Assembly (NCBI RefSeq): GCF_002162835.1
Contig: NZ_MAAX01000071.1
Coordinates: forward strand, 1-63,961
Direction of reading: 5' to 3'
Source: Nonlabens dokdonensis
GTDB lineage: Bacteria; Bacteroidota; Bacteroidia; Flavobacteriales; Flavobacteriaceae
Length of the DNA: 63,961 nt
Under the pieces are notes generated by a model. That model had not been told where the DNA came from. It ran no database searches and worked only from the letters and a program-made list of their open reading frames with translations. Shown here piece after piece: positions 73-62,821 of this stretch. Each line of letters opens with the position of its first letter. Position 1 is the first letter of the stretch. Made by a program: the position numbers and the translations under genes.

Positions 73-88
73 CGCTTTCGCGAAAGCG
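73..88. repeat. Highly iterated palindrome, copy 1
   Basis: Exact CGCTTTCGCGAAAGCG, intergenic, 9 nt after the stop of the left-edge gene. It is followed by AGATAAAAACAAA, an A-rich tail shared with several other intergenic copies. Confidence 0.95.
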
Positions 89-99
89 AGATAAAAACA

Positions 100-135
100 A
101 AAGAGCAGCTTTTCTTTCTAGACAAACTGCTCTTT
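100..135. terminator. Possible bidirectional terminator hairpin
   Basis: AAAGAGCAG at 100-108 pairs with CTGCTCTTT at 127-135 around an 18-nt loop, between two convergent genes. The loop is long and the T tracts are weak, so this is tentative. Confidence 0.4.
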
Positions 136-153
136 CTATACAACTAGGTAAGA

Positions 154-1059
154 CTATCTTTTAATAACCTTTCCAGTATTTTTATTGCCTTGATCATCGG
201 TAATGGTATAAAAATAAATGCCATCTATCTCTCTACTTAAGTCAATTTCCTTGGTAAGATCATCTCCGTGAAACACCACTTTTCCTGAAGAATTAGCTAT
301 TGTGAGTTTATAATTTTTGCCTTTTTCAAATCCTGAAAACTTGATTATAGAATTGGTAGGATTTGGATACGTCTTAAATTCTATCTCCTCAAAGTCATAA
401 CCATCTGTACCGCATACTGGACCTCCTTTAAATCTGTGGGTTGTAGTATCACTACATGTTTGTGTTCCGTTAGTTCCTGTAACAGTTATTACAGATTGAA
501 TCACTCCATTTTCACAATCTACTGGAATTAGATCAGTTTGTGGATTCCCCTCAGAATTTAAATATCCTGAAACATTTAAAACAGTGCCGTCTTGAAAAGT
601 TAACTGAATCGAAATGTTGGTTACACTCCAGCCTGGGGCCAAATCCAAAGGTGCCACAAAAACTAAATTTATATCTGTTAGCAAATTCAAATCCTTTGCT
701 GGTCCAACTTCTATTCCACAGGTGTCTACAGGTATAACTGTGAAAGTCTCACATGATTGAATACACTCTCCATTAATAAAACGAGTAAGTCTCACATTTA
801 CACTACCTACGGTTGAAGTCACATTGATGCTTCGAGAAGTATTGGCGCCATCTATTGAAGCTGTGGCATTACAATTTTCAATTGTCCAATAGTAAGCCTG
901 AGCACTTGCGGCAGTGAATGTTCCATTTCCATCATGAGTGATATCGTTTAGTGGATCATCACAATTTGTGCATTGACCGTATGTTATTGAAGTCACTCCT
1001 ATAAAAAGGAATAGGGTCATTAAAAAAGTGTTTTTTAAATACATAATAAAATATTTCAA
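154..1059 (-). CDS. Secreted protein with T9SS type A sorting domain
   Basis: 301 residues. A signal peptide is visible at residues 1 to about 29 (hydrophobic core ending in TYGQ). The middle (about 30-220) is cysteine-containing and beta-rich with no family I recognise. The last 73 residues are a typical Por-secretion C-terminal sorting domain: FKTYPNPTNS, then a KGKNYKLTI...SGKVV strand pattern and a final GKVIKR. Such proteins cross the outer membrane by the type IX system, and the domain is usually cleaved as the protein is anchored or released. The function of the passenger is unknown. The gene is convergent with the gene at the left edge. Confidence 0.85.
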   Translation of the reverse strand: MKYFIMYLKNTFLMTLFLFIGVTSITYGQCTNCDDPLNDITHDGNGTFTAASAQAYYWTIENCNATASIDGANTSRSINVTSTVGSVNVRLTRFINGECIQSCETFTVIPVDTCGIEVGPAKDLNLLTDINLVFVAPLDLAPGWSVTNISIQLTFQDGTVLNVSGYLNSEGNPQTDLIPVDCENGVIQSVITVTGTNGTQTCSDTTTHRFKGGPVCGTDGYDFEEIEFKTYPNPTNSIIKFSGFEKGKNYKLTIANSSGKVVFHGDDLTKEIDLSREIDGIYFYTITDDQGNKNTGKVIKR

Positions 1060-1115
1060 ATTTCCTACTCATTCGCTTTTCGGTTACCGCGGTAGATAAT
1101 TACTTAACTACAGGA

Positions 1116-3046: not shown

Positions 3047-3048
3047 AA

Positions 3049-4899: not shown

Positions 4900-4915
4900 C
4901 GCTTTCGCGAAAGTG
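4900..4915. repeat. Highly iterated palindrome, copy 2 (one mismatch)
   Basis: CGCTTTCGCGAAAGTG, 15 of 16 matches (C to T at position 15), intergenic between divergent genes. It is followed by ATAACAAAAG, resembling the tail of other intergenic copies. Confidence 0.85.
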
Positions 4916-5062
4916 ATAACAAAAGTTAGTTTTTTTAGGATGACGAGATAAACTTTCATCTAATCAGAAACTGTTTTCAAGGAATCAACTCTACCACTTA
5001 ACAAAGCCTTGTTTAGAAAACCTTAACATAGTTTCATATTAGATTTTTAATAAAGGGGAATG

Positions 5063-5077
5063 AGGATAATTTATCCT
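5063..5077. repeat. Perfect inverted repeat AGGATAA-T-TTATCCT
   Basis: Seven-base arms around one T, about 30 nt before the preferred start of the barrel-protein gene. It could be an operator or an mRNA leader hairpin. If translation starts at 5060 it is coding. Confidence 0.5.
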
Positions 5078-5107
5078 GTCTACGGACTACCCTTAGAAAA
5101 TCTAATT

Positions 5108-6823
5108 ATGGGTGTTCTTGTTACTAGATTACAAATTTTACCGGTCTTATTTTGTTTTATCCTGACCGTAAGCTACGCACAAAAGGAAGAACAAAAAAAG
5201 TTACCAGTACAATTAACTGGTAGTATAGGTTTTAATTATGACTATTATTCCTTTTATCAAGAGAACTACTCCAGTTTCAGACCTCGATTTCCTGAAAATT
5301 TACTTCGACTTAATGCTCAAATGAGCATCAATTTTGGTAAACATTTTAGCATTCCTATAAGTGTTAACGTTACAAACCAAGAGGTTCTTTACAACTTACC
5401 AAGTGTTCCAGATGAGAGTCCGCTAGATTATATTCAAAATCCAGCAAACAACCTAAGTATCAATCCTAAATATAAATGGGCTCAAGGATTCTTTGGTACG
5501 CAAACACCTCAGTACACACCGTTAACAACAGGAGATATCCCCATGTTTGGTTTAGGAATGGAAATAAATCCTGGTAGTTTTATATTATCTGCTGCCTTTG
5601 GTACATCGCAACGTGCAATAGAACCTGATATTTCTCTCAACATTCCTGGCGCCTATGAGCAAAGTATAACCATGGCTCGCATAGGAGTAGGAAAACTAGA
5701 AGGATCTAAATTTACGGTAAATGTGGTACGTGTAAGGGATCATATAAACTCTGTAACGATCGATCCCATAGGAATTGAACCCATTGAAGGTATAACTGTC
5801 TCACCTTATGCAGAATTTAAGCTATTTAAAAAACTCCAAATTAGAACCGAGACTGCTGGATCTATATTCACCAGCGATCTTTTTAACAATGGTACTATTG
5901 ATGAAGATTATGTTACAGCCGTTGAGGATGTTATCACAATAAATGCCAGTTCTACGGCAGATTTTGCTCACAATTCTCGTATAGACTGGAAAGGAGATAA
6001 ATTTCAAATAGGTGGTGAAGTGCAGTATATCGGGCCAGGATTTTTACCGGTAGGTTATCGATTTGTAGAACGTGATATATTGGATTATAAAGTAAACACT
6101 GGTATGAAACTCTTTAAGGATAAACTTAATCTTACAGGTAGTTTTGGAATACGCACTAATAACTTAAACAATACAAAATTATCTTCTTCTGAACGTGTTA
6201 TTTCAAATGTGAATGTTTTTGCACAAGTAACAGAGTCGTTTTCATTGAATGTGAATTATAGTAATTTTGGTTTTAATAATGATGCCAATATTTTAAACCA
6301 GCGCATTGAATTAATAAATAATTCTATCACGGTTTCTCCTTCTTACACCATTAAAGGTGAGAAATACCTGCATTTAATATCCGGTAATGTCGCATTAAAT
6401 AGTTTTGAGCAATTTGATGTTGTTAGTAACGCTTTCGCGAAAGCGGAAAACTCCACCTACTCTCTCAACTATAATATTTCCTTCTTACAAATACCATTAA
6501 ATATAGGGTTACAGAGCATTTATCTAGAAAATCAATTACCTACCGGAGATTTTAACATGCTCAATTATGGCCTAACAGCTAGTTATAAATTGCTAGATAA
6601 AAAACTTACTCCTTCTATTGGATTCAATTATGCCCATGTAGATGTTCCAGGATTTACAACCGACAATAGAAGTAATTTCAACTTAAAATTAGGTTATAAA
6701 CTCACTAAAAAACTACAGTGTAAACTGCGGTATCGATATACGAATTTTAGTTATGGAAACTCAAGACCAGGAGGATTTCTAGGTCAGAACAGAGTTCAAT
6801 TTTCTATTCAACAACGATTTTAA
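5108..6823 (+). CDS. Outer-membrane beta-barrel-like protein
   Basis: 571 residues from ATG 5108. This start gives a clean signal peptide (LQILPVLFCFILTVSYAQ). An in-frame ATG at 5060 would add 16 residues ahead of it. The body alternates short amphipathic beta strands with polar turns (for example GSIGFNYDYYSF, FSLNVNYSNFGFNN, LGYKLTKKLQCKLRYRY) and ends in phenylalanine (VQFSIQQRF), as outer-membrane barrels do. I do not recognise a named family. It is the first gene of a five-gene operon, 11 nt before the giant exported protein, so a surface or secretion partnership with that protein is plausible. Palindrome copy 3 is embedded in it and encodes NAFAKAE. Confidence 0.75.
   Translation: MGVLVTRLQILPVLFCFILTVSYAQKEEQKKLPVQLTGSIGFNYDYYSFYQENYSSFRPRFPENLLRLNAQMSINFGKHFSIPISVNVTNQEVLYNLPSVPDESPLDYIQNPANNLSINPKYKWAQGFFGTQTPQYTPLTTGDIPMFGLGMEINPGSFILSAAFGTSQRAIEPDISLNIPGAYEQSITMARIGVGKLEGSKFTVNVVRVRDHINSVTIDPIGIEPIEGITVSPYAEFKLFKKLQIRTETAGSIFTSDLFNNGTIDEDYVTAVEDVITINASSTADFAHNSRIDWKGDKFQIGGEVQYIGPGFLPVGYRFVERDILDYKVNTGMKLFKDKLNLTGSFGIRTNNLNNTKLSSSERVISNVNVFAQVTESFSLNVNYSNFGFNNDANILNQRIELINNSITVSPSYTIKGEKYLHLISGNVALNSFEQFDVVSNAFAKAENSTYSLNYNISFLQIPLNIGLQSIYLENQLPTGDFNMLNYGLTASYKLLDKKLTPSIGFNYAHVDVPGFTTDNRSNFNLKLGYKLTKKLQCKLRYRYTNFSYGNSRPGGFLGQNRVQFSIQQRF
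6430..6445. repeat. Highly iterated palindrome, copy 3 (in CDS)
   Basis: Exact CGCTTTCGCGAAAGCG inside the barrel-protein gene, read in the frame that gives AFAKA. Confidence 0.95.
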
Positions 6824-6834
6824 AATACAGGATT

Positions 6835-13823: not shown

Positions 13824-15899
13824 ATGAAAAAAATTATAATATTATTCTTATTTGCGTTGACTTCATTGCCTTGTCTAGCGCAATTTGAAGAAGAATTAAA
13901 TCCATCTAGCACCATCAATGTAATAGGTAGATATGTAGATAACGCCGTTGAATTAATTTATTTTCCTGATAAAAATAAAGCGCTCTATCAAGGTTTGAAA
14001 AAAGGGTTTGTTATTGAAAGAGCAGATTTTAATGAACTCAATGATACTTTAATCTATAAAAAAATTGCAGAGGTTTTTCCTTATCAGGAAAATGAGTGGT
14101 CTAATTTATTAAGTAGCACTACAGAAGATTTGAAAAAAGATGTAACTCTAGCCAAAGAATTCTACGATAAAAGAGATGAAAAACGAGGTGGAAAATTTTC
14201 TTTTGATAAAGGTATTAAAGAAATGCAAGAGCAAAAATTCAAAGAAGATTTTGAATACATCATTTTTGTAATGAATGCTGTAAAAAATAATAAGGTTGCT
14301 CGCGCTTTAGGATTATCCTATACTGACATAACTGCTCAGGAAAATCAACAATACGTTTACCGCATTTCTTTAAAAGAAAAGATTACAGATTATACCGTAG
14401 GTGAAGGTATGTTTCTTATGGAAACCATTAAAGAAAGTCTAAAAACTGAAAGAGACATTTACGTTAAAACTTGGGATAAAAAACTGACTTTCATTTGGGA
14501 TGAGAATGATATGATCACCGGTGCGCACGTGGAACGTAAGAATAATTCGACTGGTGAATTTGAGTTGTTAAACAGCAAGCCAGTCTTGAAGTCAGACCCT
14601 ACTTCTACCAGAAATAGTTATACTGATGAAAATCTCATCAATTATACAGAATATACCTACCGTTTTTATGGTTTCAATCCTTTTGGAGAAAAACAATATT
14701 TTGGAACAGCAACAGGAATGCCAGTCGACTTAACACCACCAGTAAACCCATCCATAATTAGCGGTAAAAACGATCAACCAGAAGAGGTGAATATTAGGTG
14801 GGAAATGCCCGTTATGGAACCAGACTTAAAAGGATTTGTTGTCGCACGATCTATTAAAAACAAAGGTGATTTTAGAGTTTTACATTCTAATTTACTACCT
14901 AAAAATACGACCAGCTATACCGATAAAACGTACAGTAAAGAAAAAGACAATTATTATGTGGTGCAGGCGATAGACACTACAGGTAACATAAGTTCTTCAA
15001 GTCCTTACTTTGTTACTATCATAGATTCTATTCCTCCAGTAAAACCTAGTTTTTTAAAAGGTAAAATAGATTCTTTAGGAATTGTCACTCTTGATATTGA
15101 ACTTAATAAAGAAAGAGATTTAATGGGGTATCGATTATTTAGATCTAATGCTGCAGAGCATGAATTTTCTGTAATTAGTGAAGGTTTTCATGAAAAGGAT
15201 ACCATCTATACAAAAGCAATTACCGTTTTTAAAGATACAGTGACTTTAAAATCACTAACACCGTATATCTATTATAAAATCAAAGCACTCGATTATAATT
15301 TTAATCAGTCCGATTATTCTGATGTATTAAAAGTGAAAAGACCAGATTATATTGCTCCTGAAACACCAGTATTTAAAAATGTAAAAGTTGGTAAAAAATT
15401 CATAGAGTTAGAGTTTATTTTGAGCAGTAGTGAAGATGTCGTGGCACAAACTTTATATAGAAAAACAGATATTAAAGAGCCTTGGGTAAAGTATGCAGAA
15501 TTACAAAATGATCAAAAGAAATATATCGACAAAAAAGTGATAACCGGAGTCAAATATTATTATAGTTTACAGGCGATAGATGACAGTGATAACCGCTCTA
15601 ATTTTTCAATTCCAGTGATGGGAAAACCCTATGATGATGGTATGCGCCCTACTGTGCAAAATTTAAGGTTAATTACAGATAAAGATCAGGTATTATTAGA
15701 ATGGGACTATAAAGAAATGAATGAGCAAACCTATTTTGTAATTTATAAAAAAAATAAAAAAGGACAATTTGTACAGTATAAAAAAAGTGATGTGTTACGC
15801 TTTCGCGAAAGCGAGAAAAACAAAAGCACCTATGCTATTAAAGTTTTTACCACTGATGGTGGCCAGTCCAAATTAAGTGAACAAGTAAGCTTTAAATAG
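13824..15899 (+). CDS. Exported protein with fibronectin type III-like domains
   Basis: 691 residues. Signal peptide MKKIIILFLFALTSLPCLAQ. The first 200 residues are a helical/beta region of no known family. Residues about 205-690 hold roughly five fibronectin type III-like repeats, recognisable by recurring DxTPPVxP / DSIPPVKP / DYIAPETP openings and YxYxIKAxD or YYxVQAxD closings. This is the third gene of the operon, 41 nt after the giant protein gene and 13 nt before the propeller kinase. FnIII arrays usually serve as spacers or protein-binding modules on the cell surface. Palindrome copy 4 near the 3' end encodes LRFRESEK. Confidence 0.75.
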   Translation: MKKIIILFLFALTSLPCLAQFEEELNPSSTINVIGRYVDNAVELIYFPDKNKALYQGLKKGFVIERADFNELNDTLIYKKIAEVFPYQENEWSNLLSSTTEDLKKDVTLAKEFYDKRDEKRGGKFSFDKGIKEMQEQKFKEDFEYIIFVMNAVKNNKVARALGLSYTDITAQENQQYVYRISLKEKITDYTVGEGMFLMETIKESLKTERDIYVKTWDKKLTFIWDENDMITGAHVERKNNSTGEFELLNSKPVLKSDPTSTRNSYTDENLINYTEYTYRFYGFNPFGEKQYFGTATGMPVDLTPPVNPSIISGKNDQPEEVNIRWEMPVMEPDLKGFVVARSIKNKGDFRVLHSNLLPKNTTSYTDKTYSKEKDNYYVVQAIDTTGNISSSSPYFVTIIDSIPPVKPSFLKGKIDSLGIVTLDIELNKERDLMGYRLFRSNAAEHEFSVISEGFHEKDTIYTKAITVFKDTVTLKSLTPYIYYKIKALDYNFNQSDYSDVLKVKRPDYIAPETPVFKNVKVGKKFIELEFILSSSEDVVAQTLYRKTDIKEPWVKYAELQNDQKKYIDKKVITGVKYYYSLQAIDDSDNRSNFSIPVMGKPYDDGMRPTVQNLRLITDKDQVLLEWDYKEMNEQTYFVIYKKNKKGQFVQYKKSDVLRFRESEKNKSTYAIKVFTTDGGQSKLSEQVSFK
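15798..15813. repeat. Highly iterated palindrome, copy 4 (in CDS)
   Basis: Exact CGCTTTCGCGAAAGCG inside the FnIII-like gene, read as RFRES. It is followed by AGAAAAACAAAAG, the same tail as intergenic copies although here it is coding. Confidence 0.95.
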
Positions 15900-19476: not shown

Positions 19477-19492
19477 CGCTTTCGCGAAAGCG
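19477..19492. repeat. Highly iterated palindrome, copy 5
   Basis: Exact CGCTTTCGCGAAAGCG, 8 nt after the LytTR regulator stop, followed by AGAAAAAAACAAAC. Confidence 0.95.
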
Positions 19493-22559: not shown

Positions 22560-22575
22560 CGCTTTCGCGAAAGCG
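22560..22575. repeat. Highly iterated palindrome, copy 6
   Basis: Exact CGCTTTCGCGAAAGCG (symmetric to 18 bp with the outer C/G), intergenic, 28 nt after the stop of the BrkB-family gene on the minus strand. On that strand it is followed by GAACAATTTAAACAC. Confidence 0.95.
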
Positions 22576-25223: not shown

Positions 25224-25947
25224 TGCTGATATGATTTGATTTCAATTGCGCTACTAATTGCGTTAAGTCTTTAGTCAATTCCAAATTATCTCCATGAATA
25301 CAAATCGTATCTATGCACAAGTTGGTTTCGATACCTTTATTAGACGTTACCTTTTGCTCTTTTACCATCTGCTCTATTTGTCGTGCAGCGGTTTGATAAT
25401 TAGTAATCAAAGCTTCAGGTTCAGTTCTGGAAACTAATTTACCATCATCATAAAGACGATCTGCAAAACCTTCTTTCCAATATGGAATTCCATTTAACTG
25501 ACATTTTTGTTCTAGAATAGACTGAGGCGCCACATAAAGAATGGTTTCCGGATAAAACTCTAGCATCAATTCTACTAACCAGTCAGAAAAATCTTCTCTG
25601 TTTGCAGTCGCATGATACAACGCACCGTGCATTTTTATGTGATGCATCTTCACTCCTTCCTCTTTAGCTGTTTCTTGAAAAAGATGTATTTGTTGAGTTA
25701 CGCTTTCGCGAAAGCGAGATCTAGAAATATCCCTAAACACACGACCAAAATTCTCGTGATCTTCAAATGATGGATGCGCACCAGCTTTCACGTTATGTTT
25801 CAGAGCCAATTGTAAAGTACGAGCAATGGAATTTTCATCGCCATAATGACCACCACAAGCGATATTGCACGAACTGATGTGTGACATAAGCATCGCATCA
25901 TTCTTCATTCCTTCACCGAGATCACAATTTAAATCGATCGTTATCAT
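25216..25947 (-). CDS. pxpA: 5-oxoprolinase subunit A (LamB/YcsF family)
   Basis: 243 residues. The family signature MITIDLNCDLGEG opens the protein, followed by SSCNIACGGHYGDENS, KAGAHPSFEDHENFGR, KMHGALYH and DTICIHGDN. PxpA is the substrate-handling subunit of ATP-dependent 5-oxoprolinase. It overlaps the Nramp-like gene by 4 nt. Palindrome copy 7 is embedded here and encodes SRFRESVTQ. Confidence 0.95.
   Translation of the reverse strand: MITIDLNCDLGEGMKNDAMLMSHISSCNIACGGHYGDENSIARTLQLALKHNVKAGAHPSFEDHENFGRVFRDISRSRFRESVTQQIHLFQETAKEEGVKMHHIKMHGALYHATANREDFSDWLVELMLEFYPETILYVAPQSILEQKCQLNGIPYWKEGFADRLYDDGKLVSRTEPEALITNYQTAARQIEQMVKEQKVTSNKGIETNLCIDTICIHGDNLELTKDLTQLVAQLKSNHISIG
25701..25716. 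repeat. Highly iterated palindrome, copy 7 (in CDS)
   Basis: Exact CGCTTTCGCGAAAGCG inside pxpA, read as RFRES on the minus strand. Confidence 0.95.
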
Positions 25948-28324: not shown

Positions 28325-28340
28325 CGCTTTCGCGAAAGCG
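28325..28340. repeat. Highly iterated palindrome, copy 8
   Basis: Exact CGCTTTCGCGAAAGCG, 14 nt after the stop of the TrkH gene (minus strand). On that strand it is followed by GAACAATCCACAAAAG. Confidence 0.95.
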
Positions 28341-32465: not shown

Positions 32466-32475
32466 TCATTTTCTC

Positions 32476-32491
32476 GCTTTCGCGAAAGCGG
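32476..32491. repeat. Highly iterated palindrome, copy 9
   Basis: Exact CGCTTTCGCGAAAGCG, midway between two convergent genes: 10 nt after the stop at 32465 and 10 nt from the stop at 32502. Confidence 0.95.
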
Positions 32492-34022: not shown

Positions 34023-35072
34023 ATGAAATTGAAGTATTCTTTTTTATTACTGATTGCAGCACTCTCATTATCAGGCTGCAAAACCGACATAGAAACGTTT
34101 AAAGAAAATTACAAACTAGAAATTACCAATTCAAAATTGAACTGGACCGAAGAGGATACAGTAGTAATATCTTTGGTAGATGCAGCATCTATAGGTGTCG
34201 ATAGTGTCATATGGACTCAAAATGCTGCTTTTATAAAAGGTGGTGATGAGGTCTCGCTTTCGCGAAAGCTGAAAAATCAACCTTATGGTAACCTAACTTT
34301 TAAGGCTACAGTTTATAAAAATGGTATGAATACCACGGTAGCTACCAAAGTTAAAAGAATGCCTAAAGAGAAAGTGAAAATATATAAGTACAAGGTGATC
34401 AATACGTATGACCACGATACTGCTTCCTATACTCAAGGATTAGAATTTTATGGCGATTCTCTATATGAAAGCACAGGTCAATTTCGTGAAAGTGATCTAA
34501 GAATAACGAGTGTTGAAACTGGTGAGACTTTAAAGAAAATCGATCTACCTGCAAGCCAGTTTGGAGAAGGAATGACCATTTTAAATGATAAAGTATATCA
34601 GCTCACCTGGCAAAGTAAAGTAGGTTATGTCTATGATTTAGGTCTTAATAAACTAGACGAATTCAAGTACAATCTAAGTAAAGAAGGTTGGGGACTTACT
34701 AATGACGGAACGTATTTATATAAAAGCGATGGAAGTTCTAAAATCTGGAAAATTGATCCTAATACATACGAAGAGCTAAGTTACATTGAAGTAGTGACTA
34801 ACGATCGTATTGTATCAAAAATCAATGAATTAGAATGGATAGATGGTAAGATTTATGCAAATGTTTATACCACTAACGTAATTATGGTAATCAATCCAGA
34901 AAACGGAAAAGTGGAAAAAGCTATAAACATGAGTCATATCGTTAAAGAAATACCGAATTATTCTGAAAATGAAAATGTATTAAATGGTATTGCTTACGAC
35001 AAAAAGAACGACCGTCTATTTATTACTGGTAAGAGATGGCCTAAGATGTTTGAAATAGAAATTACTCAGTAG
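34023..35072 (+). CDS. Glutaminyl-peptide cyclotransferase, lipoprotein
   Basis: 349 residues. Lipoprotein signal with lipobox LSGC (Cys19). The C-terminal 230 residues are a five-bladed propeller of the glutamine cyclotransferase family: HDTASYTQGLEFYGDSLYES, GEGMTILNDKVYQLTW, EGWGLTNDGTYLYKSDGS, INELEWIDGKIYANVY and VLNGIAYDKKNDRLFITGK. It converts N-terminal glutamine of exported proteins to pyroglutamate. Notably the window also encodes PxpABC, which degrades free 5-oxoproline. Palindrome copy 10 is embedded near residue 80. Confidence 0.92.
   Translation: MKLKYSFLLLIAALSLSGCKTDIETFKENYKLEITNSKLNWTEEDTVVISLVDAASIGVDSVIWTQNAAFIKGGDEVSLSRKLKNQPYGNLTFKATVYKNGMNTTVATKVKRMPKEKVKIYKYKVINTYDHDTASYTQGLEFYGDSLYESTGQFRESDLRITSVETGETLKKIDLPASQFGEGMTILNDKVYQLTWQSKVGYVYDLGLNKLDEFKYNLSKEGWGLTNDGTYLYKSDGSSKIWKIDPNTYEELSYIEVVTNDRIVSKINELEWIDGKIYANVYTTNVIMVINPENGKVEKAINMSHIVKEIPNYSENENVLNGIAYDKKNDRLFITGKRWPKMFEIEITQ
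34255..34270. repeat. Highly iterated palindrome, copy 10 (in CDS, one mismatch)
   Basis: CGCTTTCGCGAAAGCT, 15 of 16 matches, in the glutaminyl cyclase gene. Read in the third frame, giving LSRKL, in the non-conserved domain before the propeller. Confidence 0.85.
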
Positions 35073-39022: not shown

Positions 39023-39038
39023 CGCTTTCGCGAAAGCG
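39023..39038. repeat. Highly iterated palindrome, copy 11
   Basis: Exact CGCTTTCGCGAAAGCG, intergenic, 36 nt before the htpG start. It is one of only two intergenic copies not near a stop codon. Confidence 0.95.
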
Positions 39039-41142: not shown

Positions 41143-41147
41143 TAATA

Positions 41148-44491: not shown

Positions 44492-44507
44492 CGCTTTCGC
44501 GAAAGCG
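44492..44507. repeat. Highly iterated palindrome, copy 12
   Basis: Exact CGCTTTCGCGAAAGCG, 33 nt after the LytTR stop, symmetric for 22 bp with flanking TCT/AGA, then ATCAAAAACAAC. Confidence 0.95.
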
Positions 44508-46168: not shown

Positions 46169-46771
46169 TTATCTTTTACTTACAAATTTAGAAGTGTTTA
46201 AATAAAATCGCCAGGGAAGATCTTTGTCTTCATCTGCATAATCAATACCTATTCTTTTGCTTGTGGTGATCTCGCTTTCGCGAAAGCGGAATTCTTCATT
46301 CTCTTCGATCCAGACTTTATCTCCTGTTAAAGCAGCTCCATAATGAGATTTGTTTAACGCAAAAGCTTTACTGAAATTTCCTGGTCCAGAGGTAAGTGTT
46401 TTATCTAGCTTCTCCTTTTTACGACGTCGCAGCATCACTTCTACTCCATCAAGTGGCTCTACGGCTCTAATTAAAATCGCATCTGCATTATCTTTTGAGT
46501 TAGTAATGATGTTAAATAAGTGATGAATACCGTAGCATAAGTAAACATAGGCTACACCACCAGGTTCATACATGATTTTTGTACGGTCAGTAAATCTGCC
46601 TAAATGAGCATGACAAGCTTTATCGTCATAACCGCGATAAGCTTCTGTCTCGGTAATAATACCAGAGGTTAGTTCATCATTAATATTTGAAACGATCTTT
46701 TTTCCTATCAGATCTTTTGCAATGCTTACCACATCATTTTGTTGATAATAGGAAAAAGGTAATTTTGCCAT
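46169..46771 (-). CDS. 3-methyladenine (alkylpurine) DNA glycosylase, AAG/MPG family
   Basis: 200 residues. Family motifs: AKDLIGKKIV, SGIITETEAYRGYDDKACHA (catalytic Glu in ETEAY), RTKIMYEPGGVAYVYLCYGI, ILIRAVEPLDGVE and LTSGPGNFSKAF. It excises alkylated and deaminated purines in base excision repair. Palindrome copy 13 encodes FRFRESEI near residue 165. Confidence 0.94.
   Translation of the reverse strand: MAKLPFSYYQQNDVVSIAKDLIGKKIVSNINDELTSGIITETEAYRGYDDKACHAHLGRFTDRTKIMYEPGGVAYVYLCYGIHHLFNIITNSKDNADAILIRAVEPLDGVEVMLRRRKKEKLDKTLTSGPGNFSKAFALNKSHYGAALTGDKVWIEENEEFRFRESEITTSKRIGIDYADEDKDLPWRFYLNTSKFVSKR
46273..46288. repeat. Highly iterated palindrome, copy 13 (in CDS)
   Basis: Exact CGCTTTCGCGAAAGCG inside the alkylpurine glycosylase gene, read as RFRES on the minus strand. 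Confidence 0.95.
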
Positions 46772-49495: not shown

Positions 49496-49511
49496 CGCTT
49501 TCGCGAAAGCG
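49496..49511. repeat. Highly iterated palindrome, copy 14
   Basis: Exact CGCTTTCGCGAAAGCG between the two msrB genes, 61 nt after the stop of the exported one and 36 nt before the start of the cytoplasmic one. Confidence 0.95.
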
Positions 49512-50106: not shown

Positions 50107-50372
50107 ATTTTTCTTTGTTGTAAAATTAAGGTGTATAACCGCTCTTAGGTGTTGCAATTCTGTTAAGTATTATATCAATTGTTTCACAAAATTGTTGATA
50201 ATAAGGTTTTAGGTAATTAGATGAAATTGAAATAAATTTTGAATGCAAACACAAAAGCGGGATTAATTCTGTAAAATAAAATGAACACCGTAGGCGACAA
50301 AATAAATCCACAGCGATGCGTTTCATTTTAAATGATTTTGCTTTCATTTTACAGCCGTTTTACAGTTCCTTT

Positions 50373-51123: not shown

Positions 51124-51206
51124 TTAATTTGTTTAAGTTTAATGATCAAAAGTTTAACAAAATTGTGATAACTCTTTGATTCTTGACGATTATTTTTACA
51201 TTGAAT

Positions 51207-53252
51207 ATGAATACAAACACAAATCCTTTATTAGTAAATTTTGAAACCTTTCAAGACACAGCACCTTTTTCATTGATCAAGGAATCTCATTATGAGTCCG
51301 CTTTCGCGAAAGCGATAGAAGAGGCAAGAAAGGAAATAAACGCGATCACCGAGAACGCTGCACAGCCTAATTTTGAAAATACGATAGAGGCTTTAGACGC
51401 ATCGGGAGAGTTATTAGGTCGTATTTCTAGCATATTTTTTAATTTAAACAGTGCCGAAACTAACGATGAGATTCAAAGAATCGCAAGAGAAGTAAGTCCA
51501 AAGTTGTCCGATTTTGGTAATGATGTAACCTTAAACGAGGAGTTATTTGCGCGTGTAAAAGTGGTTTATGAGAATAGAACTGCTTTAGATTTAACCGAAG
51601 AACAAAAAACTCTTTTAGAAAAGCAATACAAGCGTTTTTCTCGTAACGGAGCCAACTTAGACGAAGATAAAAAGAAGCGATTGAGAGCAATCGATAGTGA
51701 ATTATCACAGTTGACTCTTGCTTTTGGCGAGAATGTTCTTGCAGCTACAAATGCTTATGAGTTGCACTTAGAAGATGACTCCAGACTATCTGGACTACCT
51801 GAAAGTGCAAAAGAAGCTGCTGCAGAAACAGCAAAGGCAAAGAATAAAGAAGGATACGTTTTCACACTTGATTACCCAAGTTACATTCCGTTTATGACCT
51901 ATGTAGACGATAGAGCGCTGCGCGAGGAGCTATCTAAAGCCTTCGGTGCCAAGTCATACAAAGATGAATATGACAATCAAGAAAACGTTCTAAAAATCGC
52001 TCAATTGCGTTATGAAAGAGCGCAATTATTGGGTTATGAAACTCATGCGCATTTTATTCTGGAAGAGCGCATGGCCAAAACTCCAGAAACAGTAAATAAT
52101 TTCTCTCAAGAAATATTAGAGAAAGCAAAACCAGCAGCTCAAAGAGAATTTGATGAGTTGCAAGAATTTGCAAGAAATTATAGCGATAATCCAGTAGAGT
52201 CCTTAAAAAAATGGGACGCAGCTTATTATTCTGAAAAGTTAAAGCAAAAGCTGTACAGTCTTGATGATGAACTACTGAAACCTTATTTTAAATTAGAAAA
52301 CGTAATTAACGGAGTTTTTGAGATTGCCAGTCGTTTGTACGGTTTGAGCTTTGAAGAAACACAAGAAATAGATAAGTACCATCCAGATGTGCTTACCTAT
52401 GTGGTTAAAAATGAAGATGGCTCGTTAAATTCTATTTTCTATGCCGACTTTTTTCCACGTAAAGGAAAGCGCAACGGTGCATGGATGACTTCTTTTAAAA
52501 ATCAATGGCACGAGCAAGACGTTAACGTAAGACCTCATATTTCTAATGTTTGTAATTTTACTAAACCTACAGCAACAAAACCTTCTTTACTTACTTTCAA
52601 CGAGGTAACAACCTTATTTCATGAATTTGGTCATGCTTTGCATGGTATGCTGGCTGATACAAAGTATAGAAGCCTATCTGGGACATCTGTTTTTTGGGAT
52701 TTTGTAGAGTTACCTAGTCAGGTGCTAGAAAATTGGTGTTATGAAAAAGAAGCACTAGAGATTTTTGCAAGACATTATGAGACAGATGAAGTGATTCCGT
52801 TAGAATATATTGAAAAAATAAAAGCGGCTGCAAATTTTCAAGAAGGCTTGCAAACATTGCGACAACTTAGCTTTGGAATGATGGATATGAGCTGGCATGG
52901 AATAGATCCTACGGCCATAACAGATGTGAAAGCACATGAAAGAAAGATTTTTAATCAAACAGATTTGTATCCAGATGTAGAAAGCAGTTGTATGAGTACT
53001 TCTTTTGCACATATCTTTCAAGGTGGCTACAGTGCTGGATATTATAGTTATAAATGGGCAGAGGTACTTGATGCTGATGCTTTTGAACTGTTTAAGCAAA
53101 ATGGAATATTTGATAGACCTACTGCAAAGAAATTTAGAGAACATATTCTTTCAAAAGGAGGAACTGAAGATCCAATGCTTTTATATACACGCTTTCGCGG
53201 AAGCGAACCTAAAATAGACGCTTTATTAAAAAGAGCTGGATTGGTAGCATAA
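51207..53252 (+). CDS. M3-family metallopeptidase (peptidyl-dipeptidase Dcp/oligopeptidase A-like)
   Basis: 681 residues from ATG 51207; a TTG 24 nt upstream is less likely. Zinc motif HEFGHALHGM near residue 471, with the distal Glu in FVELPSQVLENW and the substrate-binding YSYKWAEVLDADAF and GGYSAGYY near the end. Cytoplasmic, cleaving short peptides or dipeptides from C-termini. Two palindrome copies (15 and 16) are embedded, at the start (SAFAKAI) and the end (TRFRGSEP). Confidence 0.93.
   Translation: MNTNTNPLLVNFETFQDTAPFSLIKESHYESAFAKAIEEARKEINAITENAAQPNFENTIEALDASGELLGRISSIFFNLNSAETNDEIQRIAREVSPKLSDFGNDVTLNEELFARVKVVYENRTALDLTEEQKTLLEKQYKRFSRNGANLDEDKKKRLRAIDSELSQLTLAFGENVLAATNAYELHLEDDSRLSGLPESAKEAAAETAKAKNKEGYVFTLDYPSYIPFMTYVDDRALREELSKAFGAKSYKDEYDNQENVLKIAQLRYERAQLLGYETHAHFILEERMAKTPETVNNFSQEILEKAKPAAQREFDELQEFARNYSDNPVESLKKWDAAYYSEKLKQKLYSLDDELLKPYFKLENVINGVFEIASRLYGLSFEETQEIDKYHPDVLTYVVKNEDGSLNSIFYADFFPRKGKRNGAWMTSFKNQWHEQDVNVRPHISNVCNFTKPTATKPSLLTFNEVTTLFHEFGHALHGMLADTKYRSLSGTSVFWDFVELPSQVLENWCYEKEALEIFARHYETDEVIPLEYIEKIKAAANFQEGLQTLRQLSFGMMDMSWHGIDPTAITDVKAHERKIFNQTDLYPDVESSCMSTSFAHIFQGGYSAGYYSYKWAEVLDADAFELFKQNGIFDRPTAKKFREHILSKGGTEDPMLLYTRFRGSEPKIDALLKRAGLVA
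51299..51314. repeat. Highly iterated palindrome, copy 15 (in CDS)
   Basis: Exact CGCTTTCGCGAAAGCG near the start of the M3 peptidase gene, read as AFAKA. Confidence 0.95.
53190..53205. repeat. Highly iterated palindrome, copy 16 (in CDS, one mismatch)
   Basis: CGCTTTCGCGGAAGCG, 15 of 16 matches, near the end of the M3 peptidase gene, read as RFRGS. Confidence 0.85.
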
Positions 53253-55087: not shown

Positions 55088-55121
55088 TTGTTAGTTTAAA
55101 TACCTTAAACGACTACTTTTG
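55088..55121 (+). promoter_or_regulatory. Promoter of gcvP
   Basis: TTG (55088-55090), 23-nt spacer, TACTTTTG (55114-55121). The predicted start is about 45-50 nt before ATG 55173, which supports 55173 over an earlier reading from 55119. Confidence 0.6.
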
Positions 55122-55172
55122 CAACGAATTCAAGCAGAATTCAATATCTTAAATATAGACCACATAAGTACT

Positions 55173-58010
55173 ATGAATACAGATCGTTTTGCCCTTAGAC
55201 ATATCGGACCACGCAAGGCAGACCTTGCACCTATGTTAGAAACCATAGGAGTTGATTCTATTGATCAACTTGTTTATGAAACCGTTCCTGCAAACATTCG
55301 TTTGAAGCAAGATTTACAGTTAGATCCTGCGATGAGCGAGTATGAATTCCTAAGTCATATCAATAAACTAGGTGCAAAGAATAAACAATTCAGATCTTAT
55401 ATAGGTCTAGGATATAACCAGCCTATCACACCAGCTGTAATCCAAAGAAATATCTTAGAAAATCCAGGATGGTATACTGCATACACGCCTTATCAAGCCG
55501 AGATTGCTCAAGGACGTCTAGAAGCTTTATTGAATTACCAGACGATGGTGACCGATTTAACAGGAATGGAGCTGTCCAACGCTTCATTACTTGATGAGTC
55601 TACCGCTGCTGCGGAGGCAATGACATTACTTTTTTCAGTTCGTGAACGTGCACAGAAAAAGGAGAACATCGTTAAGTTTTTTGTAGATCAAGATACTTTG
55701 CCACAAACTAAAGAATTATTAAAAACACGTGCGATTCCGTTAGGGATTGAGTTGGTAGAAGGAAATCCGCAGGAGATAGACATGAGCGCAGGATACTATG
55801 GTATTCTGTTACAATATCCTGGTGCGAGTGGAAATGTGGTGGATTATACCGCTTTTGCGAAAACGTGCAAAGAAAACAACATCCGTATAGCCGTAGCTGC
55901 AGATATTATGTCTTTAGTGTTGCTCGAGGCTCCTGGACATTGGGGCGCAGACGTGGTTGTGGGAACTACACAGCGTTTTGGAATTCCGTTAGGATATGGT
56001 GGACCTCACGCAGCATATTTTGCGACACGTGAAGAATTTAAAAGACAAATTCCTGGACGTATCATAGGTGTTACTAAAGATACTGATGGAAAACGTGCAC
56101 TGCGCATGGCGTTACAAACGCGTGAGCAGCACATAAAAAGAGATAAAGCGACTTCAAATATTTGTACTGCACAGGTATTACTTGCCGTTATGGCTGGTAT
56201 GTATGGTGTGTATCACGGGCCACGTGGTTTGAAGTTTATTGCAAATAAATTACACGCACAAACTGCTACCCTTGCAGATGCCGTTGAGAAACTAGGGATT
56301 TACCAGACTAACGAGAACTTCTTTGACACATTAAGTTTCAAAGTAGATGCTGAAGCTGTGAAGAAAGAAGCACTAGAACTAGAAATCAACTTCTATTATC
56401 CAGATGCAAACACTGTTCAAGTTTCTTTGAACGAGACTACTTCCCTAGCAGACTTGAATGATATTGTTTCCGCTTTCGCGAAAGCGGTATCTAAAGACTT
56501 CTCTCCTATCACAGAGTTGATCGAGAAAACACACCTAGGAGAAGGACGCCAGACGGATTTCATGACCTATGAGGTATTCAACTCTTACCATTCTGAAACA
56601 GAATTAATGCGTTACATCAAGAAATTAGAGCGCAAAGATTTGGCTTTAAACCACTCGATGATTGCCTTAGGTTCTTGTACCATGAAATTGAATGCCGCAG
56701 CAGAAATGTTGCCACTTTCAAATCCGCAATGGGGAAATATTCACCCATTTGTGCCACTAGATCAAGCGCAAGGATATCAAGAAATGTTGACGAAACTAGA
56801 AATACAGTTGAATGAATGTACAGGTTTTGCTGGGACATCTTTACAACCTAATTCTGGTGCGCAGGGAGAATTTGCTGGATTAATGGCGATACGAGCTTAC
56901 CACCAAAGTCGTGGAGATCATCACAGAAACATTTGTTTAATTCCATCAAGTGCTCATGGTACTAATCCTGCAAGTGCGGTAATGGCTGGAATGAAAGTAG
57001 TAGTTACCAAAGCCCTAGATAACGGAAACATAGACGTCGATGATTTACGTGAAAAGGCAGAGAAATATAAAGACAATTTGAGTGCGTTAATGGTAACTTA
57101 TCCATCGACTCATGGAGTTTATGAAAGTGCCATTAAAGAAATCACAGGCTTGATTCATGAAAATGGTGGCCAAGTGTATATGGATGGTGCAAACATGAAT
57201 GCGCAAGTAGGGTTAACAAACCCAGGAAACATAGGTGCTGACGTTTGTCACTTGAACCTACACAAGACATTTGCCATACCTCATGGAGGTGGTGGACCTG
57301 GTGTAGGACCTATTTGTGTGGCACCTCAATTGGTTCCATTCTTACCTACTAATCCTATTATCCCGACTGGTGGCGATCAAGCGATTACACCTATCAGTGC
57401 AGCGCCGTTCGGTAGTGCGCTGGCTTGTTTAATTTCTTATGGTTATATCTGTATGTTAGGTGCTGATGGATTAAAACGCTCTACAGAATATGCTATTGTA
57501 AATGCAAACTATATCAAGGAACGTCTAGAAGGTAGTTTTTCTTGTCTATATGTAGGTGAAAAAGGACGCGCTGCTCACGAGATGATCATAGACTGTCGCC
57601 CATTTAAAGAGCACGGAATTGAAGTAGTAGATATAGCAAAACGACTAATGGATTATGGTTTTCACGCTCCTACAGTGTCATTCCCAGTAAACGGGACAAT
57701 GATGATAGAACCTACAGAATCAGAATCTAAAGAAGAAATAGACCGTTTTTGCGACGCCATGATTTCTATAAGAAAAGAGATTGCTGAGACAAGCAAAGAC
57801 GAACCGAATAACTTGTTAAAGAACGCGCCGCATACCTTGCAAATGATTACTAGTGATGATTGGGATTTACCATACACAAGGCAACAAGCTGCATATCCGC
57901 TGGATTATGTGTCTGACAATAAATTCTGGCCTACCGTGCGTCGCGCAGATGATGCTTATGGCGATCGTAATTTAATGTGTACTTGCGCTCCTATGGAAGA
58001 GTATTTGTAG
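55173..58010 (+). CDS. gcvP: Glycine dehydrogenase (decarboxylating), P protein
   Basis: 945 residues from ATG 55173 (MNTDRFALRHIGPRKADLAP), the usual length of the fused homodimeric P protein. The PLP lysine lies in HLNLHKTFAIPHGGGGPGVG near residue 697. Other conserved parts: YIGLGYNQPITPAVIQRNIL, ENPGWYTAYTPYQAEIAQGR, MLNAAAEM-type segment CTMKLNAAAEMLPLSNP, and PSSAHGTNPASAVMAGMKVV. It decarboxylates glycine in the glycine cleavage system. Palindrome copy 17 encodes SAFAKAVS, and a two-mismatch copy lies at 55850-55865 (TAFAKTC). Confidence 0.97.
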   Translation: MNTDRFALRHIGPRKADLAPMLETIGVDSIDQLVYETVPANIRLKQDLQLDPAMSEYEFLSHINKLGAKNKQFRSYIGLGYNQPITPAVIQRNILENPGWYTAYTPYQAEIAQGRLEALLNYQTMVTDLTGMELSNASLLDESTAAAEAMTLLFSVRERAQKKENIVKFFVDQDTLPQTKELLKTRAIPLGIELVEGNPQEIDMSAGYYGILLQYPGASGNVVDYTAFAKTCKENNIRIAVAADIMSLVLLEAPGHWGADVVVGTTQRFGIPLGYGGPHAAYFATREEFKRQIPGRIIGVTKDTDGKRALRMALQTREQHIKRDKATSNICTAQVLLAVMAGMYGVYHGPRGLKFIANKLHAQTATLADAVEKLGIYQTNENFFDTLSFKVDAEAVKKEALELEINFYYPDANTVQVSLNETTSLADLNDIVSAFAKAVSKDFSPITELIEKTHLGEGRQTDFMTYEVFNSYHSETELMRYIKKLERKDLALNHSMIALGSCTMKLNAAAEMLPLSNPQWGNIHPFVPLDQAQGYQEMLTKLEIQLNECTGFAGTSLQPNSGAQGEFAGLMAIRAYHQSRGDHHRNICLIPSSAHGTNPASAVMAGMKVVVTKALDNGNIDVDDLREKAEKYKDNLSALMVTYPSTHGVYESAIKEITGLIHENGGQVYMDGANMNAQVGLTNPGNIGADVCHLNLHKTFAIPHGGGGPGVGPICVAPQLVPFLPTNPIIPTGGDQAITPISAAPFGSALACLISYGYICMLGADGLKRSTEYAIVNANYIKERLEGSFSCLYVGEKGRAAHEMIIDCRPFKEHGIEVVDIAKRLMDYGFHAPTVSFPVNGTMMIEPTESESKEEIDRFCDAMISIRKEIAETSKDEPNNLLKNAPHTLQMITSDDWDLPYTRQQAAYPLDYVSDNKFWPTVRRADDAYGDRNLMCTCAPMEEYL
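55850..55865. repeat. Degenerate palindrome in gcvP (two mismatches)
   Basis: CGCTTTTGCGAAAACG, 14 of 16 matches, read as AFAKT in frame. Either a decayed copy or chance similarity of the same peptide. Confidence 0.4.
56471..56486. repeat. Highly iterated palindrome, copy 17 (in CDS)
   Basis: Exact CGCTTTCGCGAAAGCG inside gcvP, read as AFAKA between the two halves of the protein. Confidence 0.95.
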
Positions 58011-60117: not shown

Positions 60118-60304
60118 ATTTTATAAAATTATAAGTGATTCATGCCTTTTATTATTCATTGCATTATAAAATTCATAATAAACTAAACAATTCATTAGAT
60201 GATTCTTAAAGATTTAAAAAGAAGATCATATTCGGCTGTTAATTATTAGGAATGAATCACATAAATCACTTTTTTTGTTGTCCCTAAGATTGAAAAGAAG
60301 TTGC

Positions 60305-61363
60305 ATGAGAGCAAAAATTACCGGAGTAGGAAGTCACATTCCTGATGTTGTGAGAAAAAATGAAGAGTTCATGAATCATGAATTCTTAAATAATGATGGA
60401 AGCTCTTTCGGAAGTGATAACGCTACCATCATCAAAAAATTTGTAGCTATAACTGGAATAGAAGAACGCAGGTATATGAGCGATGATCTCCTTACCAGTG
60501 ATATTGCAACCTTAGCTGCAGAGAAAGCAATAGCAGATGCTAAATGTGATCCTGAATCAATAGACTTCATAATCGTTGCACACAATTATGGCGATGTAAA
60601 ACCAGATGGAGGATCTAGCGATATGGTTCCAAGTCTTGCTAGCCGTGTAAAAAACAAACTAAAGATTAAAAGTCCCAAATGCGTAGCATATGATGTACTC
60701 TTCGGTTGTCCAGGCTGGATTCTAGGAGTCACTCAAGCAGACTCTTTCATAAAATCAGGTCTTGCAAAAAAAGTACTTGTCATCGGTGCTGAAGCGTTAT
60801 CGCGAGTTGTAGATCCACACGACAGGGATTCTATGATTTATTCTGATGGTGCTGGAGCTGTAATTGTTGAACCTAGCCATGATGATCATGGAATATTAGG
60901 ACAATCTACTGCTACATTTACAGAAGAAGAGGCATTCTTTATTTTTAATGAAACTTCATATAATAAAGAGTTACAAGATAAGACTCAGTATATAAAAATG
61001 TACGGTCGCCGCATTTATAATTTTGCTCTCTCTAAAGTTCCTGAAGGAATGAAAGCCGCTATGGATCAAGCAGGAGTGGATATTAAAGATTTGAAAAAAA
61101 TCTTTATTCATCAGGCAAATGAGAAAATGGACGAAGCTATCGTTGAGCGTTTCTACAAGCTTTATGACATGGAAGTACCGAAGGATATCATGCCTATGAT
61201 CATTCACAAATTTGGTAACAGCTCTGTTGCTACGGTTCCTACAGTTATGGATCTAGTGGTAAGAAATCAAATGCCACAGCACAAAGTAGAAAAAGGAGAT
61301 GTAGTAATGTTTGCTAGTGTAGGTGCTGGAATGAATATCAATGCTATAGTCTACAGGTATTAG
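60305..61363 (+). CDS. Beta-ketoacyl-ACP synthase III family protein (FabH-like)
   Basis: 352 residues from ATG 60305 (MRAKITGVGSHIPDVV); a TTG at 60275 adds ten unrelated residues. Thiolase-fold catalytic triad: Cys in VLFGCPGWILGV (residue 135), His in IFIHQANEKM (269), Asn in HKFGNSSVATVP (305). Compared with typical FabH (about 320 residues) it has insertions near the N-terminus (MNHEFLNNDGSSFGSDNATI). It condenses acyl-CoA with malonyl-ACP, either for fatty acid initiation or a specialised lipid. Confidence 0.92.
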   Translation: MRAKITGVGSHIPDVVRKNEEFMNHEFLNNDGSSFGSDNATIIKKFVAITGIEERRYMSDDLLTSDIATLAAEKAIADAKCDPESIDFIIVAHNYGDVKPDGGSSDMVPSLASRVKNKLKIKSPKCVAYDVLFGCPGWILGVTQADSFIKSGLAKKVLVIGAEALSRVVDPHDRDSMIYSDGAGAVIVEPSHDDHGILGQSTATFTEEEAFFIFNETSYNKELQDKTQYIKMYGRRIYNFALSKVPEGMKAAMDQAGVDIKDLKKIFIHQANEKMDEAIVERFYKLYDMEVPKDIMPMIIHKFGNSSVATVPTVMDLVVRNQMPQHKVEKGDVVMFASVGAGMNINAIVYRY

Positions 61364-61457
61364 GTGATTAGGTGAAATTATTAAACCAAATCAATCCACC
61401 TTAAATTCAGCGATATTTAAGCTTTTTTCAGGTCGTTTTAAAACTTTCATTTTATAG

Positions 61458-62183
61458 CTATTCAATGACTTCCATATCTATAAAAATATCTTCTTTAGGC
61501 CAGTCGCTTTCGTCTCTCGGTACTCTAGCAATCTCATCTGCGATGTTAATTCCTTTTGTTACTTTACCAAAAACAGTATGCTCACCGTCTAAATGAGGTG
61601 ATCTACTCAAAGTAATAAAAAAGTCAAATGGATTATGCCAGTCTTCTGGATTATTCTCCCATTGTTTGGCACTACTTAAGGAACCACGTTCATGAACAAT
61701 ACCAGGTATGAAATGAGGTGCAAGTTTATAATTTCCAGCACTAGCTCTTTTTAAGGAAGGTAACTTTTCATCACTATTACCACCTTGAACTACAAAATCC
61801 TCTACTACACGGTGAATAAAAGTACCATTAAAATATGCATTTTTAGTGAGGTAAATAAAACTAGCACGATACAGCGGCGTCTCTTCAAATAACTCCATTT
61901 CTATATCACCATAAGAAGTCATAAGTCTGACTTTAGTTTCTGGATTTTCCTTTCCATATCTAGTAAAAAATGGCACTACACTATCTTGCGGGATGTACGC
62001 TAGAAGTGTATCACCATCTGCAGATAGTTGTCTTTTATAGGTTTTTTCAAGAATACGTTGTTCTCTTGTCTTTCTAACTACCGTATCTGTCTTTTTAACT
62101 GACTCGTTATTTTGAATTTGTGGAGTATCTTTACACGATAAGAGTGTTAATAAAGACAAGAAAATTAAAATACGTGACTTCAT
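61458..62183 (-). CDS. Cyclophilin-type peptidyl-prolyl isomerase, lipoprotein
   Basis: 241 residues from ATG 62183 (MKSRILIFLSLLTLLSC, lipobox LLSC, Cys17). The cyclophilin domain covers about 85-240: YGDIEMELFEETPLYRASFI, FNGTFIHRVVEDFVVQGG and EHTVFGKVTKGINIADEIA. It catalyses cis-trans isomerisation of proline bonds in exported proteins. Its start overlaps the divergent NUDIX gene start by 10 nt. Confidence 0.93.
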   Translation of the reverse strand: MKSRILIFLSLLTLLSCKDTPQIQNNESVKKTDTVVRKTREQRILEKTYKRQLSADGDTLLAYIPQDSVVPFFTRYGKENPETKVRLMTSYGDIEMELFEETPLYRASFIYLTKNAYFNGTFIHRVVEDFVVQGGNSDEKLPSLKRASAGNYKLAPHFIPGIVHERGSLSSAKQWENNPEDWHNPFDFFITLSRSPHLDGEHTVFGKVTKGINIADEIARVPRDESDWPKEDIFIDMEVIE

Positions 62184-62821
62184 TTCAGGAATTTTTAGAT
62201 AGAATTTCAAAGCTAAAGAATTTACCGCTTCCAGGGCTACAATCGCAGCTTAAAATGGCTGCTGTAGAACGTCTAGACGAAATGCGGCACAGTGCTATGA
62301 AAGCACAAAATCATAAAGAAGCTTCTGTTATGATGCTCGTATATCCTAAAAATGACATCCCACATTTTGTGCTTATAGAACGCGCTCAAACTAAAGGTAA
62401 ACATAGCGGTCAGATTGCTTTTCCGGGCGGCAGAAAGGAAAAAACCGATGTTGACAACAGTTACACCGCTCTAAGAGAAACTGAAGAAGAAATAGGGATA
62501 TCCATAGAGCATCAACATTTAATTACCTCATTGACATCTCTATACATCCCACCCAGTAATTACATGGTTTATCCTTATCTCGCTTTCGCGAAAGCGGAAT
62601 TACAATTCAAAGCGCAACCCAGCGAGGTAAAATCGATTATAGAAATAGAGCTAGCAGAATTGCTCAAAGATCAAAATGTGAGTAAAACGGTCTTATCAAC
62701 TAGTTATATGAAGGAAGTAAGTGTGCCGTGCTTTTATTTTGGCGATGTGATGGTTTGGGGTGCAACGGCAATGATGTTGCAAGAAATCAAAGACTATTTT
62801 CTTCAAGCCAGTGGCAACTGA
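62174..62821 (+). CDS. NUDIX hydrolase, CoA pyrophosphatase type
   Basis: 215 residues. I place the start at GTG 62174 (VTSFQEFLDRISKLKN); a reading from 62120 adds residues that lie opposite the cyclophilin signal peptide. The NUDIX box is GGRKEKTDVDNSYTALRE followed by TEEEIGI, preceded by the CoA-specific SGQIAFPGG. It hydrolyses CoA or its derivatives, possibly for CoA turnover. Palindrome copy 18 encodes LAFAKAEL. Confidence 0.9.
   Translation: MTSFQEFLDRISKLKNLPLPGLQSQLKMAAVERLDEMRHSAMKAQNHKEASVMMLVYPKNDIPHFVLIERAQTKGKHSGQIAFPGGRKEKTDVDNSYTALRETEEEIGISIEHQHLITSLTSLYIPPSNYMVYPYLAFAKAELQFKAQPSEVKSIIEIELAELLKDQNVSKTVLSTSYMKEVSVPCFYFGDVMVWGATAMMLQEIKDYFLQASGN
62581..62596. repeat. Highly iterated palindrome, copy 18 (in CDS)
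   Basis: Exact CGCTTTCGCGAAAGCG inside the NUDIX gene, read as AFAKA. Confidence 0.95.

Follow-up and report, generated by a model that had tools for sequence, protein, structure and literature searches.

A 16-bp palindrome repeated genome-wide in Nonlabens and two related genera, and the symmetric element of about 52 bp around it

The cyanobacterial palindrome HIP1 (GCGATCGC) is iterated genome-wide, and its function is treated as unsettled in the passages of PMC4390886 that deal with it. A similarly iterated palindrome of 16 bp, CGCTTTCGCGAAAGCG, is described here from Nonlabens dokdonensis (Flavobacteriaceae; assembly GCF_002162835.1), where it was noticed in contig NZ_MAAX01000071.1, the whole 63,961-nt length of which is called the window. 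Among the genomes sampled the palindrome is enriched in three genera only, namely Nonlabens, genus g206 and a third genus represented by one genome (G190), which are together called the clade. HIP1 is 8 bp long, whereas the 16-bp sequence forms the core of an element of about 52 bp; the core contains neither GCGATCGC nor a derivative of it, and GATC is also absent. HIP1 has orphan methyltransferases, whereas neither of the two methylase families tested here is conserved in the clade.

The sites of the chromosome-organising proteins Noc (Noc-binding site, NBS) and ParB (parS) share with this element the form of a long palindrome, and NBS are spread over the chromosome according to the part of PMC7383237 that describes them. 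Their consensus sequences given there (TGTTTCACGTGAAACA / TATTTCCCGGGAAATA) differ from the core, in which TTTC and GAAA are separated by two bases instead of the four in parS and NBS (PMC7383237); a figure legend of the same paper restricts Noc to Firmicutes. In the clade, by contrast, the sites number in the hundreds, the samples taken, in which ter was not located, show no large empty region, and there is no additional ParB or Noc. The uptake signal sequence (USS) and DNA uptake sequence (DUS) resemble the element in their many hundreds of copies, their core with flanks and their dialects, whereas the present element is palindromic and strongly spaced, and a pilus platform was unmatched in 24 of 32 clade genomes. 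Repetitive extragenic palindromic (REP) sequences and bacterial interspersed mosaic elements are likewise repeated palindromes; here, in contrast, the half-sites are nearly independent, half of the copies are genic and coding sites arise by substitution.

Excess, anatomy and spacing of the element

The draft genome (3.04 Mb, 214 contigs) contained 602 exact copies of the 16-mer, against none of the reversed control, and 741 copies with at most one mismatch. Markov models of orders 2 to 5, trained on 244 kb from this genome, predicted at most 0.04 copies where 54 were seen. The window itself holds 15 exact copies, three with one mismatch (4900, 34255 and 53190) and one with two (55850); 100 dinucleotide shuffles of the window gave an expectation of 0.01 copies, and none of them reached 19. 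The G+C content is 35% in the window, and 10 of the 16 bases of the palindrome are G or C. The preliminary description had proposed a GC-rich, HIP1-like palindrome far above chance in AT-rich DNA, dispersed through the window and tied to no gene class, and these counts bear it out and extend it genome-wide: copies are neither near the Markov expectation nor limited to the window, being present in all 41 genomes of two genera. Its interpretation as a whole is supported in part, and its count of exact and one-mismatch copies holds, except that the copy listed at 32476 starts at 32475. Neither the exact 16-mer nor its inner 14-mer had a match in the open PubMed Central literature, and searches there with a 10-mer, or with Nonlabens and palindromes, returned no such element, as judged by title and abstract.

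The sequence around the core was analysed at 193 exact sites in DNA of G000, G400 and G416 (the last of genus g206), and the statements on flanks exclude sets with orthologous copies. Changes in the core are tolerated chiefly at the outermost base; in G190, 32 of the 37 listed places with one mismatch have this base altered. Between +3 and roughly +18, G is scarce on the 3' side and C is scarce on the 5' side. The frequency of G on the 3' side was 1-14% between +3 and +18 (at most 11% save at +13), compared with a background of 17-18% in Nonlabens and G416, and C was preferred to G. The genera have their own dialects directly after the core, RRA in Nonlabens and TAA in G416: in Nonlabens A reached 85% at +3 and 74% at +9, and in G416 T reached 68% at +1 and A 79% at +2 and 72% at +3. 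The flank code extends to +15 both in intergenic-only and in coding sites, somewhat more weakly in the latter at +7 and +13, and no sequence is shared beyond about 30 bp. The 16-mer thus forms the centre of a recognition element that is symmetric and some 52 bp long.

The left and right flanks of single copies vary almost independently (largest |z| of 2.2 over 12 positions in two sets), and this argues against a hairpin or cruciform function, two weak positives in G416 notwithstanding. The pattern suggests that a putative dimer or larger complex reads the 52 bp, rather than that a hairpin is formed.

Placement was tested on 240 sites of the 14-mer core in 1.04 Mb of DNA, using a null model that weights intergenic DNA. 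Although genes make up 90% of the bases, only 122 of the 240 sites were genic, so that intergenic DNA is nine times as dense in sites. The number of sites per intergenic region was the same for convergent, divergent and tandem ones (0.19-0.21), which speaks against a promoter or terminator role. The distances between neighbouring sites were far from random. Short gaps were depleted (0-500 bp, 5 seen and 29.6 expected; 500-1000 bp, 4 and 19.0; 0-1000 bp combined, 9 and 48.6; 1000-1500 bp, 10 and 17.4), and longer ones were in excess (3-4 kb, 43 and 19.9; 4-6 kb, 48 and 27.8; 3-6 kb combined, 91 and 47.7). Sites therefore repel one another below about 1.5 kb and favour gaps of 3-6 kb, and the short-gap deficit does not depend on dropping long gaps. 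In the window the coefficient of variation of spacing was low (P 0.0025, all gaps). Both the 52-bp extent and this strongly repulsive spacing, which the preliminary description had proposed to test, go beyond that account.

The sites are spread over the chromosome. In 20-kb samples of two complete chromosomes, 0-5 exact copies were counted in 16 samples, one of them empty, and 1-6 in 20 samples; macrodomain-type sites were rejected since 35 of the 36 samples carry exact copies. The empty sample and two long gaps correspond to a peptide synthetase (G400), a Wadjet system next to a frame with Rhs repeats (G397) and, in G416, where one piece was scanned, giant repeat proteins. These three accessory stretches contain no exact copy, and four gap loci have one inner 12-mer each. 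In the G397 stretch (L266, L267), Wadjet JetABCD and the Rhs-repeat frame are accompanied by a T2SSF gene beside a prepilin-like frame. One 20-kb sample (L230, G400 at 2.00 Mb) has a G+C content of 22.5% on a chromosome of about 35% and still contains three sites. Two Nonlabens phages (L294 and L295, about 35.7 kb each) contain neither a copy nor TCGCGA, possibly through avoidance; among viral contigs, 41 stretches matched.

Distribution, conservation and stray copies

The palindrome was present in 180-737 copies in all 23 Nonlabens genomes and in 138-711 copies in all 18 genomes of genus g206, while G190 had 153 exact copies and 377 with at most one mismatch; in 12 clade genomes the latter count ranged from 377 to 925. 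In a sample of 397 genomes of the family, 48 had any copy, comprising six enriched genomes (four Nonlabens, genome G206 and G190) and 42 with 1-13 copies. In a sample of 296 genomes of the phylum nine had a match, and enrichment was found only in the window's own genome. The inner 12-mer occurred 720, 586, 917 and 445 times in the sampled clade members and 0-19 times in all others (239 genomes), being enriched only in g1, g206 and g190 among 235 genera. It was absent from 79 named loci of non-Nonlabens genera (1.52 Mb). No comparable iterated palindrome was found in these loci of 4-23 kb (L026-L104), from which weaker motifs would escape; 16 of the 79 were flagged solely for 8- to 14-mers at 2-9 copies, including TTCGCGAA five times in L049. 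The clade boundary is thus sharp. In a GcvP tree, g206, G190 and Nonlabens group together, the nearest named GcvP to that of the window being from N. xylanidelens (93%). Several clade members are single-contig genomes. A single origin followed by vertical descent is the simple reading of this distribution.

The copies in the window are as follows, with the reading frames and the orthologous positions in other genomes.

73..88, exact copy, intergenic
4900..4915, one-mismatch copy, intergenic
6430..6445, exact copy, within open reading frame (ORF) 5060-6823 (+), peptide NAFAKA
15798..15813, exact copy, within ORF 13824-15899 (+), peptide RFRESE
19477..19492, exact copy, intergenic
22560..22575, exact copy, intergenic; exact copy in G400 at most 3 nt from the aligned position
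25701..25716, exact copy, within ORF 25216-25947 (-), peptide RFRESV; exact in G400
28325..28340, exact copy, intergenic
32475..32490, exact copy, intergenic
34255..34270, one-mismatch copy, within ORF 34023-35072 (+), peptide SLSRKL; identical variant in G400
39023..39038, exact copy, intergenic, upstream of an ORF presumed from recognition to be htpG-like; exact in G400
44492..44507, exact copy, intergenic; exact in G400
46273..46288, exact copy, within ORF 46169-46771 (-), peptide RFRESE; exact in G400 and four other aligned Nonlabens
49496..49511, exact copy, between two adjacent ORFs taken by recognition to be MsrB-like (49082-49459 and 49573-50157, -), overlapped by a mechanical 86-aa ORF on the opposite strand; exact in G400
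51299..51314, exact copy, within M3-peptidase-like ORF 51183-53252 (+), peptide SAFAKA; one mismatch in G400
53190..53205, one-mismatch copy, over conserved peptide RFRGSE; exact in none of 29 aligned loci
55850..55865, two-mismatch copy, within gcvP-like ORF 55119-58010 (+); exact in five other aligned Nonlabens
56471..56486, exact copy, within the same gcvP-like ORF (+), peptide SAFAKA
62581..62596, exact copy, within NUDIX-like ORF 62120-62821 (+), peptide LAFAKA; one mismatch in G400

Conservation was measured after the motif had been masked prior to alignment. At a flank identity of 65-70% the site was exact in 42% of 547 aligned positions, compared with 0% (rounded) of 3187 control 16-mers, and at 90-95% in 88% of 34 compared with 39% of 204 controls, the related species pairs behind these figures being non-independent. 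The DNA itself is better conserved at the sites than in control stretches nearby. At the lower identity, 51% of the aligned positions had at least four mismatches or an indel, and orthologous sites are mostly either exact or gone. At 56471 in GcvP, the same codons carry an exact site in 12 of the 19 other Nonlabens, in 6 of the 10 g206 genomes and in G190, which makes this site probably ancestral to the clade. The copy at 53190 is probably not a working site, because it is exact in none of the aligned loci. At the 51299 locus, the aligned clade members lacking the site mostly had related codons, PAFEEA-like in several g206 genomes, and were ungapped across the 16 positions. The coding sites examined arise by substitution, and intergenic sites show indels.

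The kept sequence is long enough to alter proteins. Its commonest frame encodes AFAKA, which occurred 79 times in 312,201 clade residues (77 via motif codons) and not once in 459,938 residues from outside the clade; the corresponding counts were 18 (17 via the motif) and 0 for RFRES, and 32 (26 via the motif) and 5 for LSRK.

Low-copy genomes of the family were represented by 20 regions from 15 of the 42 genomes, with 40 copies. About 33 of these stray copies lay in RND pump, outer-membrane efflux, membrane-fusion, heavy-metal ATPase or conjugation-like genes, with frames read by eye, and some sit at conserved distances. A Pfam check of ten stray frames confirmed AcrB-type pump, OEP, HMA ATPase and CusB-type domains. 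The transfer-like frame matched DUF4138 alone, a domain that we presume to be linked to TraN, and the remaining frames matched DUF1501, a TonB receptor, AbiEii and FUR. We infer that the strays are mobile islands that passed through the clade. In these 42 genomes with 1-13 copies the motif marks DNA that probably left the clade. G051, G076 and G287, with 11-13 exact copies each, stand above the other non-clade genomes and may carry islands or remnants.

Other features of the window were recorded. The largest site-free gap (6430-15798) is mostly occupied by a 2315-aa secreted-looking ORF (6835-13782). The only match in a scan for RNA families was a Bacteroidales small signal recognition particle RNA at 33835-33942 (-; 101 bits), between two ORFs and away from any site. 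Three sets of ORFs (2288-4797, 15913-19468 and 42918-44458) are presumed by recognition to encode histidine-kinase-like proteins with LytTR-like response regulators, and three small adjacent ORFs at 39520-41693 are presumably DUF2589-like.

Possible functions of the element

Candidate partner proteins were sought among the Pfam families of the roles considered. The C5 methylase family PF00145 was matched in 5 of 13 clade genomes and hence is not clade-wide, and the N4/N6 methylase family PF01555 in 6 of the 13 irrespective of score and in 5 over the cut-off; G405, G421, G422 and G432 have neither family and keep the motif. ParB gave one match in 12 of the 13 clade genomes and two in G401, and one in 16 of 20 controls. 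Seven clade and three control parB loci of 3.5 kb each had no parS sequence within two mismatches, and the other clade parB loci scanned gave a single two-mismatch match. Four Nonlabens parB loci (L285, L287, L289 and L293) have a one-mismatch copy of the motif at position 1424. Of 32 clade genomes 8 had a match to the pilus platform PF00482, as did 10 of 48 genomes from outside the clade. Among the families examined, ordinary ParB is the sole clade-wide candidate, and the clade's single ParB may read the element with a new specificity.

The reading that we tentatively prefer is that the sites are recognised by a putative dimeric or larger protein which organises the whole chromosome. A dedicated DNA-binding protein of this kind would have been gained or re-targeted in the ancestor of the clade, would occupy each site, and would play a structural part over the whole chromosome, for instance by anchoring or bridging the DNA at intervals of a few kb, with compaction, control of loops, segregation or nucleoid occlusion as possible ends. 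A part of this kind would account for the symmetry expected of a dimer, for the length of the footprint and for the wide distribution, and also for the repulsion, because a second site near an existing one would add nothing. The stronger form, in which the putative protein reads one 52-bp symmetric site per 3-6 kb as a chromosome ruler whose spacing is actively kept, is possible and is put forward with greater reserve.

Several observations weigh against a chromosome-organising protein or limit its support. The site-specific chromosome organisers known so far act at far smaller numbers of sites, and selection site by site at hundreds of loci is demanding, whereas molecular drive would keep the sites more easily. 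No binding protein was found among the C5 and N4/N6 methylases, ParB paralogues and pilus platform, a dedicated ParB or Noc paralogue being absent. The flank code is weak in G190, with +6 to +8 and +10 near background (42 sites of the 12-mer), and in G416 adjacent left-right matches at +1 (z 2.0) and +2 (z 2.2) allow a weak palindromic extension. Spacing was sampled in few genomes (G000, G400 and G416) with mechanical ORF calls, and, since G000 and G400 share an orthologous region, the spacing and peptide counts are not fully independent. The low coefficient of variation in G416 and G397 is clear only when gaps above 16 kb are left out (P 0.0000), and with every gap included P is 0.21 and 0.11, respectively. 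In one 18-kb region neighbours did not make up for lost sites, but the test had too few positions to carry weight: 59 of the 70 sites could be mapped, 11 were set aside, and the distinct positions numbered eight, of which three share an intergenic region. The non-clade residues of the peptide count all come from loci around gcvP; the GcvP tree was read without support values and from limited relatives, one g206 locus being omitted as too short. An order-6 Markov model predicts 9 of the 54 copies, because at that order it has absorbed pieces of the motif.

Of the roles listed in the preliminary description, methylation (two families tested) and type IV pilus uptake are weakened, and the best that remains is a protein which organises the chromosome. 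Under an uptake role, transformation would favour site-bearing fragments, and biased uptake with recombination would spread and perfect the site. USS and DUS are not palindromes, and 24 of the 32 clade genomes lack a match to the platform, which leaves room for other types of machine; the hundreds of copies, the strong core with weaker A-rich flanks, the genus dialects, the absence from both phages and the scarcity in the three accessory stretches do fit an uptake signal. Riemerella columbina, placed in Flavobacteriaceae, is described in PMC7965970 as naturally competent and as preferring its own DNA. Karlin noted an even spacing of uptake sequences and saw in it a sign of replication, repair or compaction, as cited in the relevant passage of Bakkali 2007 (PMC1939737), where they are judged less even than compaction would require. 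For Haemophilus influenzae, PMC7811141 gives 23% as the share of USS10 sites that have another within 100 bp, whereas sites here repel below 1.5 kb. Because such sites are often close, uptake would explain the excess and the dialects and not the repulsion, and we regard it as unlikely.

A HIP1-like site maintained through an orphan methyltransferase that modifies it would share with HIP1, whose internal sequences have methyltransferases in the part of PMC4390886 concerned with them, the palindromic, dispersed and genome-wide character. The changes at the outermost C, of which C>T (17 in three genomes together) and C>A (14) are the commonest, are a weak hint at most, and the patchy occurrence of both families and a 52-bp flank code, which modification would not lead one to expect, make this role improbable. 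A recombination or repair signal of the Chi type is still less probable. On each strand, the 5' flank is T/G-rich and C-poor, a composition that RecA prefers and that would suit its loading, and the strand-asymmetric flanks and few-kb spacing agree with such a signal; known Chi sites, however, are non-palindromic and 5-8 nt long, and spacing repulsion is unexpected of them. A mobile or REP-type repeat spread by insertion would account for the copy number and the palindromic form, and is hardly credible, given that coding loci without the site are mostly ungapped with related codons, that nothing is shared beyond about 30 bp and that about half of the sites are genic.

Signals this dense and exact usually reveal a basic genome process. 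If the ruler is true, the chromosomes of Nonlabens and its two related genera would have a genome-wide architecture of a third kind, in addition to sites of the ParB/Noc/MatP type and to nucleoid proteins that bind unspecifically.

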